DNA from: Allochromatium vinosum DSM 180
GTDB taxonomy: Bacteria; Pseudomonadota; Gammaproteobacteria; Chromatiales; Chromatiaceae
Direction: 5' to 3'
DNA: 64,000 bases
Assembly: GCF_000025485.1 (NCBI RefSeq)
Contig: NC_013851.1
Coordinates: 2,399,501 to 2,463,500, forward strand
Shown here: one piece after another, positions 1-4,796 of the stretch
Layout of the letters: each line of letters begins with the position of its first letter
Position numbering within the stretch: the first letter of the stretch is position 1
Notes under the pieces: generated by a model
The model's input: only the letters and a program-made list of their open reading frames with translations
The model's database searches: none
What the model was told of the DNA's origin: nothing
Made by a program: the position numbers and the translations under genes

Positions 1-640
1 GGAGCACCCGGAATTCGGCCAGCTCGTGCGTGAGCCAGTCGAGGGCGATGTCGGCGGCCAGGATGCCGATCAGGCGCTCGCCATCCGAAGTCGCCTGCGT
101 CACGGGCAGAGAGAAGGTCGCAATCAGCTGCGTGTTGCCGGCCCCCAGCTCGTAGTAAGGCTCACTCCATTCGGCGCGCCCCAGTTCACGCGGGATCTGA
201 TACCAGTCCGAGAACAGATAGTCCTGCTCTTCCAGGGCAAAACTCAACTCGATCCGGCCATCGCGCCGGAAGACATAGGGCGCGCGACGTCGATCGGGGT
301 GGTCCAGTACCGCAGGCTCGAATCCCATGGCCATCCCGAACAGTTCGGGATTCATCTCCAGGGCACGCCGCAGCAGGGGCACGATGTCGTCTTCGCCAAT
401 ACGCACCGAGTCGAGCGTGCTGGCCAGGGTCTCGGTCGCACGCCGCACCGAGATCAGGACACGCTCCACGCGCTGCACCAGGGCCAGCGAACGGTTGTGG
501 GCGTTGTCCTGCAAACGCTGCAACAGCAACTCACGCGCCTGATAGTGATACAGCCCCAGGCTGGCACCGAGGACAGTGGCCACGCACAGCATCACCGAGA
601 GGACCAGCCGTGCACCGATTCCAGAGAAACGCGCCATCAT
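1..640 (-). CDS. Cache-type membrane sensor, N-terminal part; likely the phosphatase of the partner switch (partial)
   Basis: The gene runs off the left edge; 213 codons are visible, starting MMARFSGIGARLVLSVML. The start ATG (640-638) overlaps the TGA of the upstream gene as ATGA, so the two are translationally coupled. Residues about 8-28 are one membrane helix. They are followed by an extracytoplasmic region resembling a double-Cache sensor: a helical stretch, then FGMAMGFEPAVL, then a WYQIPRELGRAEWSEPYY segment typical of dCache_1 domains. The output domain lies outside the window. Because the same operon carries an RsbV-like STAS protein and an RsbW-like kinase but no phosphatase, I infer a C-terminal PP2C/SpoIIE phosphatase. 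A histidine kinase, GGDEF or chemoreceptor output remains possible. Confidence 0.7.
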   Translation of the reverse strand, partial: MMARFSGIGARLVLSVMLCVATVLGASLGLYHYQARELLLQRLQDNAHNRSLALVQRVERVLISVRRATETLASTLDSVRIGEDDIVPLLRRALEMNPELFGMAMGFEPAVLDHPDRRRAPYVFRRDGRIELSFALEEQDYLFSDWYQIPRELGRAEWSEPYYELGAGNTQLIATFSLPVTQATSDGERLIGILAADIALDWLTHELAEFRVL

Positions 641-1707
641 TGGACTCCGAGACGTTCGATATCGGTCGGCATGGCATCGATCATCTCCAGGTGCTGCAAG
701 GCTTCACCGACCCGGTCGACATCCTCGGGGTGCAGTCGCCAGTCCCAGCCGTGCTCGCCCGGATCACCCATGACCGCGTGGATCTGTTCCAGCATCCAGC
801 GCTGATGGATACGATTGGCCGGCACACGCGCCGCGCGCTGGTGCTGGAGCACGAGATCAAGCGCGCCCTCCGGGTCGGCAAAGGCCTGCTCCCAACCACG
901 CCTGGTGGCTGCCACGAAGGCCGTGATCGCAGCGGATTTTTCGCGCTGCGTCTGTTCGAGCGCATAGAGTCCGTCTTCGGGGAAATCGATCCCATACTCG
1001 GACAGCCGGAACACCGTCAGCGCTTCCGGTTCCAGGCCGGCATTGATCAGCAGATGATATTCGTTGTACAGCATCCCCGACATGGCCTCGACTCCCCCGC
1101 GCAGGAAAAGATTGACCGTCTGCGACTGCGGCACGCGCTTGACCTCCAGCCCCCGGGTGCGTAGCAGAGCCTCGATCGGCAGGGCCGGGTCGTTGCGCCA
1201 GACCCCGACACGCCGACCATTGATGTCGGACAGACGGTGCACATTCGAACTGGAGCGCGCGATCAGTACCACCGAGGAGCGTTGGAACAGTTGCGCGACA
1301 TTGACCAGGGGCACGCCCTCGGCGCGGGCCTCGATGGCGGTCGACAGCCACAGCACCGCCAGATCCACCTCGCCCGTTTCGAGGGCCGCGCGTGGTGAGC
1401 GCGCATGACCCATGCTCAGGAGGCTGGCCTCAATCCCCGCCTCGCGATAGAACCCGTGCGCCTGCGCGACATAATAGCCGGCGAACTGGGCCTGCGGCTG
1501 CCAGGCGAGCATCAGACGCAGCGGCGTGCGTGTCGCAGCGGGCGCCGAGGATTCGGACTCGTCCTCGGCCCAGATCGGCGGCGCGATCAACAGACTCAGC
1601 GCCGCCAGACCCCAGAAGCGTGCCGAGCGCCCAAGCCGATCGGACAGAACGCCCCATCCAGACCAAGACCATCGCTCAACCACGCGCCGTATCTGGAGCA
1701 CGCTCAT
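637..1707 (-). CDS. Periplasmic ABC-type substrate-binding protein, NMT1/THI5-like, orphan
   Basis: The product has 356 residues. A long basic N-terminus and a hydrophobic stretch ending near PPIWAED form a signal peptide. The mature part begins LRLMLAWQPQAQFAGYYVA and continues AQAHGFYREAGI, the opening of NMT1/THI5 and SsuA-type solute-binding proteins. Later stretches (VDLAVLWLSTAIEARAEG, GRRVGVWRND) fit that fold. No permease or ATPase gene lies nearby; the neighbours are a STAS protein, an anti-sigma-type kinase and a Cache sensor. The protein may therefore present a ligand to the sensor rather than feed a transporter (inference). The start overlaps the upstream gene by 32 bases and the stop overlaps the next start as ATGA. 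The ligand cannot be predicted. Confidence 0.82.
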   Translation of the reverse strand: MSVLQIRRVVERWSWSGWGVLSDRLGRSARFWGLAALSLLIAPPIWAEDESESSAPAATRTPLRLMLAWQPQAQFAGYYVAQAHGFYREAGIEASLLSMGHARSPRAALETGEVDLAVLWLSTAIEARAEGVPLVNVAQLFQRSSVVLIARSSSNVHRLSDINGRRVGVWRNDPALPIEALLRTRGLEVKRVPQSQTVNLFLRGGVEAMSGMLYNEYHLLINAGLEPEALTVFRLSEYGIDFPEDGLYALEQTQREKSAAITAFVAATRRGWEQAFADPEGALDLVLQHQRAARVPANRIHQRWMLEQIHAVMGDPGEHGWDWRLHPEDVDRVGEALQHLEMIDAMPTDIERLGVQ

Positions 1708-2128
1708 CCTCGTCCGTGGGTTGACACATGATCAGCGAGACCAGATTGCGCCCCTGCTCGCGCCGACAGCTCAGTTCAGTCACCATCTGGCGCACCAGGA
1801 ACCAGCCCAGACCGCCGACGGTGCGCTGCTCCAGGGTCGCGGCCAGATCCGGCTCCGGCAGATTGGCTGGATCGAACGGCTGTCCATCGTCGAGTACATC
1901 GAGCACGAACCGCTCGGCGCTCGGCGCGATGCGCAGCTCGATCTCGCCCGGCTGACCCGGCGGATAGGCATAGTGACAGACATTGACGAACACCTCTTCG
2001 AGCGCCAGGGCGAGCCGTCCGCCAAGACGCGGATCGAGTCCGGCCTGCTCGACCCAGGACTTCAGGAACGCCTGAGCCTCGGGCAGCTGGTCGACGGTTG
2101 CCGGCAGACGCCGGGTCACGGCGTTCAT
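1676..2128 (-). CDS. RsbW/SpoIIAB-like anti-sigma serine kinase (HATPase)
   Basis: The product has 150 residues. It has GHKL ATPase motifs: an N-box in ALEEVFVNVCHYAY (Asn about 49), a G1-like box VLDDGQPFDP (about 78-87) and a G2-like GGLGWFLVRQMV (about 105-116). This is the complete fold of RsbW/SpoIIAB-type kinases, which bind a target and phosphorylate a STAS antagonist. The start at 2128 forms an ATGA overlap with the STAS gene stop, so a longer upstream frame is not needed. No sigma factor gene is visible in the window, so the controlled target is unknown. Confidence 0.85.
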   Translation of the reverse strand: MNAVTRRLPATVDQLPEAQAFLKSWVEQAGLDPRLGGRLALALEEVFVNVCHYAYPPGQPGEIELRIAPSAERFVLDVLDDGQPFDPANLPEPDLAATLEQRTVGGLGWFLVRQMVTELSCRREQGRNLVSLIMCQPTDEDERAPDTARG

Positions 2129-2466
2129 GGGGTTTGCACCAGGGTTATGGCCTCGGGCAACGAGTCGCACACCTTGAACAGTGACAGCAGACCCGTCATC
2201 TCGAAGACTTCGCGCACACTGGGCTGGAGATTGACGTAGACCAGCGCCCCGCCCTGAGCCATCAGCGGCTTGCTCGTGTTCAGCAGCGCGCGCAGTCCGG
2301 CGCTGCTGATATAGACCAATGGGCCGAAATCCAGAACCAGTCGCCGTGCACCCTCGGCGACGAGACGATTGACCCCCTGCTCGTAGTCGGCACCACTGAG
2401 CGCATCGAGCTGACCGGAAACTTTCAGGACGTGGATGCCGTCCTGGAGTGTGATTTCGATCTCCAT
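2125..2466 (-). CDS. STAS-domain anti-sigma factor antagonist (RsbV-like)
   Basis: The product is a single STAS domain of 113 residues. The signature DFGPLVYISSAGLRALL is at residues 46-62, and Ser55 aligns with the phosphorylated serine of SpoIIAA/RsbV proteins. It is first in an operon with the RsbW-like kinase (ATGA overlap), a binding protein and a Cache sensor. By family knowledge, the unphosphorylated form would sequester the kinase and free its target. An AAAGGGG ribosome-binding site lies shortly upstream of the ATG on the minus strand. The 197-base gap to the divergent hydrolase gene should hold both promoters, but I see no clear sigma-70 pair. Confidence 0.9.
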   Translation of the reverse strand: MEIEITLQDGIHVLKVSGQLDALSGADYEQGVNRLVAEGARRLVLDFGPLVYISSAGLRALLNTSKPLMAQGGALVYVNLQPSVREVFEMTGLLSLFKVCDSLPEAITLVQTP

Positions 2467-3745: not shown

Positions 3746-4339
3746 ATGCCGAGCCATATCGAGACAGTGAAGTTACAGCCCGTGCGACTGGAGATCCGCC
3801 ACCAGATCCCCGGACGGATTCGGCTGCATCTGCCCGGATTGCGAGAGGATCCATTTTCGAGCGCACGGCTGATGCGGGCACTGGGGCAGGTCGAGGGCGT
3901 GCGCGGTGTGCGCTGGAATCCGGCCTGCGCCAGTCTGGTGGTCTGGCATCGGCGCGCTGGGCGGCTGACCCAGGCGGAATTGAGCGAGATCCTCGATCCC
4001 GTGCTCCAGCCGGTCGTCTCGTACTGGCCGGCACGGATCGAGGCGGCCAAGGCCGCACGGCCGGCGACCAAGACGTCCGCTCGAACGCCCTCCACCCGGA
4101 TGGTTCCGGCCCGGACTCCCGCCGCCTGGACAGCGAACTGGCGCACTTGGCTGCCCCAAATCGATGCCTGGCGATGGCGCCCCACCGTCGAGCTTCAGAG
4201 CGCGGCCACGTCCAGCCCCAGCCAGCCCAGTTGCCGGCTGTGTCAGCTCAAACTGGCCCTGGCGCGCTGGATCTTCAACGATATCTGGCGTTGCTGGACG
4301 CATGAGCTGACGACTTCGCAACGCCCCCAGGCGCGCTGA
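3746..4339 (+). CDS. HMA-like domain protein with basic linker and Cys-containing tail
   Basis: The product has 197 residues. Residues about 15-90 contain HQIPGRIRLHLPGL, the opening of HMA-like (HMA2) domains. They continue as a ferredoxin-like fold with VEGVRGVRWNPACASLVVW, but there is no CxxC metal motif. A low-complexity segment rich in Ala, Arg, Thr and Pro follows (about 100-130), then a tail with CRLCQLKLALARWIF. A second, shorter HMA-like protein lies about 100 bases downstream, so the two probably act together. Such proteins occur near metal P-type ATPases and iron transport genes, but no transporter is present here. The function is unknown; a role in metal handling at the membrane is inference. 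Confidence 0.68.
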   Translation: MPSHIETVKLQPVRLEIRHQIPGRIRLHLPGLREDPFSSARLMRALGQVEGVRGVRWNPACASLVVWHRRAGRLTQAELSEILDPVLQPVVSYWPARIEAAKAARPATKTSARTPSTRMVPARTPAAWTANWRTWLPQIDAWRWRPTVELQSAATSSPSQPSCRLCQLKLALARWIFNDIWRCWTHELTTSQRPQAR

Positions 4340-4442: not shown

Positions 4443-4796
4443 ATGCATCACTCGATCCATCACATTCCCGGTCGTCTGCGTGTCCGTTCAGCCGCGTTCC
4501 GGTGTCGCCCTGGGACGGTCGATTCCATTCAGGAACAGCTGCGCTCGCTCGACGGCGTCGAACAGATCCGTTTCAACCAAGCCGCCGGCAGTCTGGTCAT
4601 CCATTACGATACGGCGCGCCTGGATCATCATCGACTGCTGGAGATGCTCAAGGAAACGGGTTGCGTCAATCTGTCGTCGGCGAGCGAAGCGGTGATTTCG
4701 AAGGCGGGCGCGCTGTTCGGCAAGGCGCTCGTCGGCGCGGTCGTCAACAAGGCCGTCGAGCGCTCGGCCTTCCGTCTGGTCAGCGTGCTGCTGTAA
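4443..4796 (+). CDS. Small HMA-like domain protein
   Basis: The product has 117 residues. It opens MHHSIHHIPGRLRVRSAAF, the HMA2-type IPGRLRxR motif. It continues with LDGVEQIRFNQAAGSLVIHYD, a ferredoxin-like beta-alpha-beta unit without metal-binding cysteines. The last 40 residues (AGALFGKALVGAVVNKAVERSAFRLVSVLL) are hydrophobic with regular small residues and look membrane-seeking. It appears to be the partner of the gene at 3746-4339. A large stem-loop that would stop transcription from both sides lies after the stop. The function is unknown. Confidence 0.75.
   Translation: MHHSIHHIPGRLRVRSAAFRCRPGTVDSIQEQLRSLDGVEQIRFNQAAGSLVIHYDTARLDHHRLLEMLKETGCVNLSSASEAVISKAGALFGKALVGAVVNKAVERSAFRLVSVLL

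Follow-up and report, generated by a model that had tools for sequence, protein, structure and literature searches.

Partner switches are known chiefly for their part in stress responses, and to our knowledge their extracellular inputs have seldom been identified. In LuxP-LuxQ, a binding protein of the periplasm supplies the input to a receptor in the membrane, and both LuxP and NspS are binding proteins of families other than NMT1. The phosphatase SiaA has a periplasmic sensor-HAMP-PP2C layout, and its substrate SiaC lies outside Pfam STAS. Several described systems are close to the one reported here. In Pseudomonas aeruginosa, SiaA and the kinase SiaB balance the phosphorylation of SiaC, which occurs on Thr68 of a protein whose structure resembles anti-sigma factor antagonists (PMC7647112). 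Partner switching by RsbU/RsbV/RsbW includes a Chlamydia RsbU with a periplasmic sensor (PMC8256260), and in NspS-MbaA the transmembrane receptor takes its input from a periplasmic binding protein (PMC5646818). The receptors fed by binding proteins listed in 2022 are chemoreceptors, sensor kinases, cyclic diguanylate (c-di-GMP) enzymes and Ser/Thr kinases (PMC9602780), with a similar list in PMC11113362; phosphatases are absent from both lists in the accessible portions of these sources. Here we analyse an operon of Allochromatium vinosum DSM 180 that begins within a 64,000-nucleotide stretch (contig NC_013851.1, positions 2,399,501 to 2,463,500; hereafter the window) and joins genes for a STAS antagonist, an RsbW-type kinase, an NMT1/THI5-type binding protein and a dCache-HAMP-PP2C phosphatase. 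We consider it quite probable that these genes encode a partner-switching circuit across the membrane, fed by a solute-binding protein that is dedicated to it and has no transporter of its own. Both halves are of known kinds, receptors fed by binding proteins on the one hand and partner switching on the other; their combination through a phosphatase appears to be new.

The operon lies on the minus strand. Its first gene encodes a STAS-domain antagonist of the RsbV/SpoIIAA kind (2125..2466; PF01740, E 2.5e-19), followed by an RsbW-type Ser kinase of 150 aa (1676..2128; HATPase_c_2, PF13581, E 1.3e-27), an orphan periplasmic binding protein of the NMT1/THI5 family with an N-terminal secretion signal (637..1707; PF09084, E 1.1e-38) and the phosphatase, of which the window holds the N-terminal 213 aa (1..640), that is, the first transmembrane segment and most of the dCache sensor. 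The kinase start overlaps the STAS stop by 4 nt, the NMT1 gene, taken from its first ATG, shares 32 nt with the end of the kinase gene, and the phosphatase start overlaps the NMT1 stop by 4 nt. A first-pass annotation of the window alone had proposed four open reading frames (ORFs) overlapping end to start with these same identities, and both the overlaps and, by Pfam matches, the identities are confirmed. It had also looked to the sequence left of the window for a PP2C/SpoIIE domain on the Cache protein, as opposed to an unrelated output domain. That sequence (L002:15171-17141, reaching to about window position -1330) completes a 656-aa protein with an MCP-like PDC/dCache domain, a HAMP domain and the SpoIIE/PP2C domain (PF07228, 2.2e-55). 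The phosphatase carries the metal-binding Asp residues of an Rsb-type PP2C/SpoIIE enzyme: Asp442, Asp460 and Asp580 are invariant across a 58-row alignment, and Asp112, Asp130, Asp250, Asp302 and Asp303 (counted from residue 331) are kept in each row that covers them.

The evidence that ties the binding protein to the phosphatase comes mainly from a survey of NMT1 relatives, in which named genomes were scanned with 14 NMT1 sequences, the best 80 of at least 584 relatives were kept by likeness, and up to 6 kb on each side was examined (some contigs end inside this stretch). In 54 of the 80 loci, a proportion that is no natural frequency because 13 of the 14 seeds came from Cache loci (the exception being L038) and the sample leans to the signalling type, a Cache gene lies directly after the NMT1 gene, with no more than 107 nt between the two domains (median 44). 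TauC/SsuC-type permeases and no Cache gene are found in 25 loci (one of them, L123, with a weak 28-bit PP2C match elsewhere in the locus), neither is found in one (L119), and no locus has both. The result is this clean split, and the adjacency of NMT1 and Cache genes, recurring in 54 loci, is beyond chance. Cache and full PP2C share one frame in 50 of the 54 signalling loci (a count made with 61 references, 5 of 66 rows being left out), and two more (L073 and L084) are truncated where their contigs stop. These loci span 13 named phyla plus four without a named phylum; they come mostly from metagenome-assembled genomes, so that a phylum represented by a single one is unsure. At least four gene orders occur among them, and no single-chain fusion of NMT1 with Cache-PP2C was seen in any of the 54. 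The survey of four-gene co-occurrence suggested in the first-pass annotation thus finds NMT1 and Cache-PP2C together across phyla, with STAS and kinase (above 50 bits each) both present in 26 of the 54 loci and one of the two in five more. Because the same gene pair is adjacent in very different bacteria, the pairing looks like a means of environmental sensing that is widespread yet little described. "Little described", the earlier estimate, agrees with the open-access literature, in which we found no description of an NMT1-type binding protein paired with a SpoIIE/PP2C phosphatase; the accessible portions of PMC8256260 and PMC9796306 do not describe one either.

A reverse test in 119 genomes of the window's order, in which up to 10 first-look candidates were scored per genome so that counts may be low, gave at least 16 matches spanning nearly the full Cache-HAMP-PP2C model, and NMT1 adjoins 12 of the 16 listed. 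From the NMT1 side, the same genomes gave 16 listed places with E below 1e-41, all free-standing; at 14 of them the phosphatase, its remnant or its first codons are adjacent, and one (in G061) is cut by a contig end. The genus also shows a decay series. In one congener (G010; L037:7754-9828) the NMT1 and phosphatase frames are broken, with pieces missing, and STAS (96%) and kinase (93%) align full length; in another (G011; L204) only a HAMP-PP2C remnant is left, beside a metallo-beta-lactamase-fold gene like the window's.

The binding protein itself resembles proteins described as importer subunits. Its AlphaFold2 model (mean predicted local distance difference test score, pLDDT, 89.9) is closest to 3ix1, a ThiY-type formylaminopyrimidine binding protein (TM-score 0.84 normalised by 3ix1, 22% identity), and next to 4nmy, a binding protein with thiamin bound (17% identity); the fold is the same, and the difference is that 3ix1 and 4nmy are described as importer binding proteins. 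Export appears to be general, a hydrophobic N-terminus being present in 60 of 61 usable NMT1 relatives and in none of 61 control windows placed inside the proteins (of 66 rows, 5 could not be used), as measured upstream of a fixed motif with a window and threshold that differ from those of a first test. That first test had scored 29 of 54 N-termini and 7 of 65 control windows as hydrophobic, since the start of the profile truncated the signal. An exported protein genetically tied to one transmembrane receptor is the pattern of a binding-protein-activated receptor, and it is what the 54 loci and the 60 N-termini display. In the window's own genome, an NMT1 domain is also fused to PAS-GGDEF (L048:6815-8977, at about 525100 of G000:C1), which sets a precedent for a sensory use of this fold.

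Could this protein nevertheless be an ordinary importer subunit that uses a distant or shared ATP-binding cassette (ABC) permease, so that adjacency reflects co-regulated uptake and the Cache domain senses a ligand of its own? Its sister branch does consist of importer subunits with permeases (25 of the 80 loci). In a quickly built tree of 99 NMT1 rows, made with no bootstrap, 67 signalling rows fall on one side of a branch (Shimodaira-Hasegawa-like approximate likelihood ratio test, SH-aLRT, 84), the signalling and importer labels need one change as against 25 when shuffled, and of the 28 importer rows 25 cluster together and three, which come from the window's order, stand apart. The NMT1 residues L121, L200, F201, P243, N298, W304 and L306 are conserved on the signalling side and seldom found among the importers. 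No ABC permease or transporter lies beside the operon on either flank, the sequence left of the window included, which bears out the absence noted in the first-pass annotation and disposes of a full transporter just outside the window, the finding that would have spoken against its interpretation. Nor was one of the sister type found farther away. The window's genome has 10 BPD_transp_1 places, the sister permease profile matched nothing in the eight loci fetched for them, and a sister permease searched against the whole genome gave nothing better than E 0.3. A cognate permease and ATPase, as an ABC importer would have beside its gene or elsewhere in the genome, were thus not found. Across the survey, none of the 54 signalling loci has a TauC/SsuC-type permease within 6 kb, and "no permease" holds for this first of two profiles only. 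The second, an amino-acid-type profile, gave matches close to the module at 5 of 66 loci (L044, L060, L063, L110 and L131), with four of the five permeases fused to several SBP_bac_3 domains; as these permeases have, or stand next to, solute-binding domains of their own, a transporter is close by in those genomes, though not of the NMT1 kind. On balance we regard the importer explanation as unlikely. The fusions themselves are long proteins, adjoining the module or a short way from it, at L060:3289-7047, L063:9540-12713, L110:9516-11711 and L044:173-4477. As a separate observation, PF04392 (ABC_sub_bind) proteins with one to three domains each occur in the neighbourhood of the module at 7 of 66 loci (L058, L074, L082, L085, L087, L089 and L090; for example L058:4144-6189 and L090:8788-11916), beside kinase or STAS genes in L058, L074, L082 and L089, and neither the TauC/SsuC-type nor the amino-acid-type profile found a permease near these seven.

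A second alternative is that the Cache domain alone is the input and that NMT1 makes no contact with the receptor, acting as a scavenger or a buffer to reduce free ligand, or as a periplasmic enzyme of the Thi5 kind. The model of a phosphatase homologue (L053; mean pLDDT 89.8) shows a dCache domain, HAMP helices and PP2C, the dCache part matching 3lib and other dCache receptors and the PP2C part matching SiaA (6k4e), RssB (3f79) and Rv1364c. Solved dCache relatives are mostly receptor domains, several of them holding small ligands, the NMT1 fold includes enzymes such as Thi5, and 4 of the 16 listed near-full-length phosphatases do without NMT1, all of which suits this explanation. However, such a role would need neither fixed adjacency nor joint decay, and the closest folds of the NMT1 protein are binding proteins. 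NMT1-Cache distances are also the tightest of the three pairs: over 63 sets, r is 0.85 for NMT1-Cache, 0.78 for NMT1-PP2C and 0.72 for Cache-PP2C, and the partial r is 0.67 for NMT1-Cache given PP2C against 0.44 for NMT1-PP2C given Cache, although both partial values lie above all 2000 shuffles, so that the test only leans towards an NMT1-Cache tie. We therefore consider a receptor-independent NMT1 protein decidedly improbable.

Several observations, besides the lean of the survey seeds and this lean of the distance test, weigh against a circuit fed by the NMT1 protein. First, NMT1 is missing as a neighbour of those four phosphatases, three of which have STAS and kinase: one (L194) lies with STAS, kinase and an amino-acid-type transporter, two (L196 and L197) lie with STAS and kinase and have a more divergent Cache domain, and the last (L195) stands alone near a Tn5-type transposase. 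Second, the NMT1 place L038 (G099:C15) has no PP2C beside it and falls inside the signalling side of the tree; together with the four phosphatases, it indicates that a closely related phosphatase can manage without NMT1. Third, dCache may recognise a ligand without the help of a binding protein. Fourth, the PP2C match after Cache is no more than weak and partial in two signalling loci, L085 and L092 (106 and 55 bits). Finally, neither STAS nor kinase was found in the examined stretch at 23 of the 54 loci, some of them at contig ends, which makes the NMT1 and Cache-PP2C pair the constant core.

The remaining two genes encode what appear to be the other parts of an Rsb-type partner switch. The best solved relative of the STAS protein is 4hyl, SpoIIAA chains also match, and the protein passes TIGR00377 (71.6 bits, cut-off 53.45). 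Its Ser55 and Gly57 are kept in 43 of 43 rows, the window's protein included, and in the alignment Ser55 falls on the first Ser of DSSG in SpoIIAA, which we take to be the phospho-serine of that protein. Judged from sequence, Ser55 in YISSAGLR is most likely the phospho-acceptor, so that the operon would have the STAS antagonist with a conserved acceptor Ser expected of an Rsb-type system. The kinase has RsbW (6m36) as its sole match among solved structures and keeps the N-box of RsbW/SpoIIAB-type kinases (Glu45 and Asn49 in 39 of 39 rows), along with Asp80 and Gly82 in 40 of 40, and its score lies far under the cut-offs for an RsbW equivalog (29.8 bits against 145). It is fused to the PP2C phosphatase in 7 of 67 loci (54 from the survey and 13 from the window's order), an arrangement suggesting that the two enzymes work against each other at the membrane and that STAS is the mobile output. 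The likeness of STAS and kinase to anti-sigma antagonists and RsbW is what would favour an ordinary sigma-factor partner switch in which NMT1 is a hitch-hiker of no account. Yet the operon holds no sigma-factor gene, NMT1 is fixed beside the phosphatase in 54 loci whereas STAS and kinase are the parts that move or are not found nearby, and the wide co-occurrence of NMT1 and phosphatase counts against chance company; this explanation seems to us highly implausible. Elsewhere in the window's genome, a second partner-switch cluster (L200; G000:C1:2801902-2804044) has two STAS, two HATPase_c_2 and one SpoIIE gene in a row and is stressosome-like by layout.

The circuit that we favour would work as follows. 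The kinase would phosphorylate STAS on Ser55, and the NMT1 protein, on binding a small ligand, would dock on the periplasmic dCache domain. HAMP would relay the change to PP2C, switching it on or off and so altering the dephosphorylation of phosphorylated STAS, which the kinase would oppose; unphosphorylated STAS would then switch partner and change a downstream output. We read the NMT1-dCache-PP2C part in this way because the NMT1-Cache pairing recurs (54/80 loci, 13 phyla, 12/16 in the reverse test) on a single branch of the tree, because functional residues are kept, NMT1 and phosphatase decay together and the partial correlations favour NMT1-Cache, and because of the PAS-GGDEF and kinase-PP2C fusions. 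At the level of the genes, this supports the interpretation put forward in the first-pass annotation, in which a ligand caught by the binding protein is read by the sensor and converted to STAS dephosphorylation. More broadly, it seems likely that a branch of thiamin-precursor-type binding proteins left transport and now serves as dedicated co-receptors of Ser/Thr phosphatases, forming a class of partner switches that is spread widely, also among gut Bacteroidota, and reads extracellular, perhaps N-heterocyclic, ligands.

Comparison with the described systems highlights similarities and differences. With SiaABC the operon would share a balance of kinase and phosphatase on a small switch protein, SiaA PP2C being among the closest folds; it differs in that the named Sia parts, in the accessible portion of the source, include no binding protein and SiaC is phosphorylated on Thr68 (PMC7647112), and in that no cyclase gene lies within the window's operon. 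Identity as a SiaA equivalog was rejected (96.8 bits against a cut-off of 700). The likeness to RsbU/RsbV/RsbW (PMC8256260) lies in the PP2C, STAS and HATPase trio, the conserved phospho-serine and the transmembrane sensor phosphatase; here a binding-protein gene is added, the operon lacks a sigma factor, and the kinase is fused to the phosphatase in some loci. NspS-MbaA is a clear parallel, with a binding protein that acts on a transmembrane receptor (PMC5646818). LuxP-LuxQ works in the same way. The outputs of these two systems are c-di-GMP turnover or a histidine kinase, unlike the Ser/Thr phosphatase here. If the circuit operates as proposed, Ser/Thr phosphatases would join the receptor types fed by binding proteins, and genes annotated merely as "ABC transporter substrate-binding protein" would gain a function. 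If the input is a soluble binding protein, a simple thermal-shift assay could be used to look for its ligand, and the route from that ligand to the phosphorylation of STAS could be rebuilt in vitro.

As to that ligand, it may conceivably be a pyrimidine- or purine-like N-heterocycle. Neighbours of the sister ABC loci include amidohydrolases (7) and M20 peptidases (6) among 54 proteins scanned, picked from 106 listed. Xanthine-dehydrogenase-like Mo-hydroxylase genes, a possible clue, lie beside the module at L069:1-5129, L078:1-5009, L081:9598-12858, L040 and L057:11574-12932, called by Pfam for L069 and L081, by annotation for L040 and by likeness for the others. All three kinds of neighbour point to N-heterocycles, too weakly for a ligand to be named from them. 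In L069 and L078 the Mo-hydroxylase gene is on the same strand, just upstream, with a major facilitator superfamily (MFS)-like gene and a protein of about 340 aa that has no Pfam match and is GNAT-like by eye. Rfam scans of 34 loci (the window's own locus L002, 10 ABC-type and 23 signalling) found no thiamin pyrophosphate (TPP) element. The cobalamin aptamer at L053:10993-11199, their only riboswitch, is some 2 kb beyond the module and was set aside as a clue; a Bacteroidete trp leader (L110, 4450-4579) lies about 1.3 kb before NMT1, and the remaining matches are tRNAs and an rRNA end.

Beyond the phosphatase there is a gap and then a gene for a DUF2189 membrane protein, the opposite flank has a divergent gene for a metallo-beta-lactamase-fold protein, and PADLOC gave no match to a defence system. 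Near the operon, a small ORF (window 3746-4339) matches HMA_2 (heavy-metal-associated domain 2), and the small ORF adjoining it (4443-4796) resembles it by eye.

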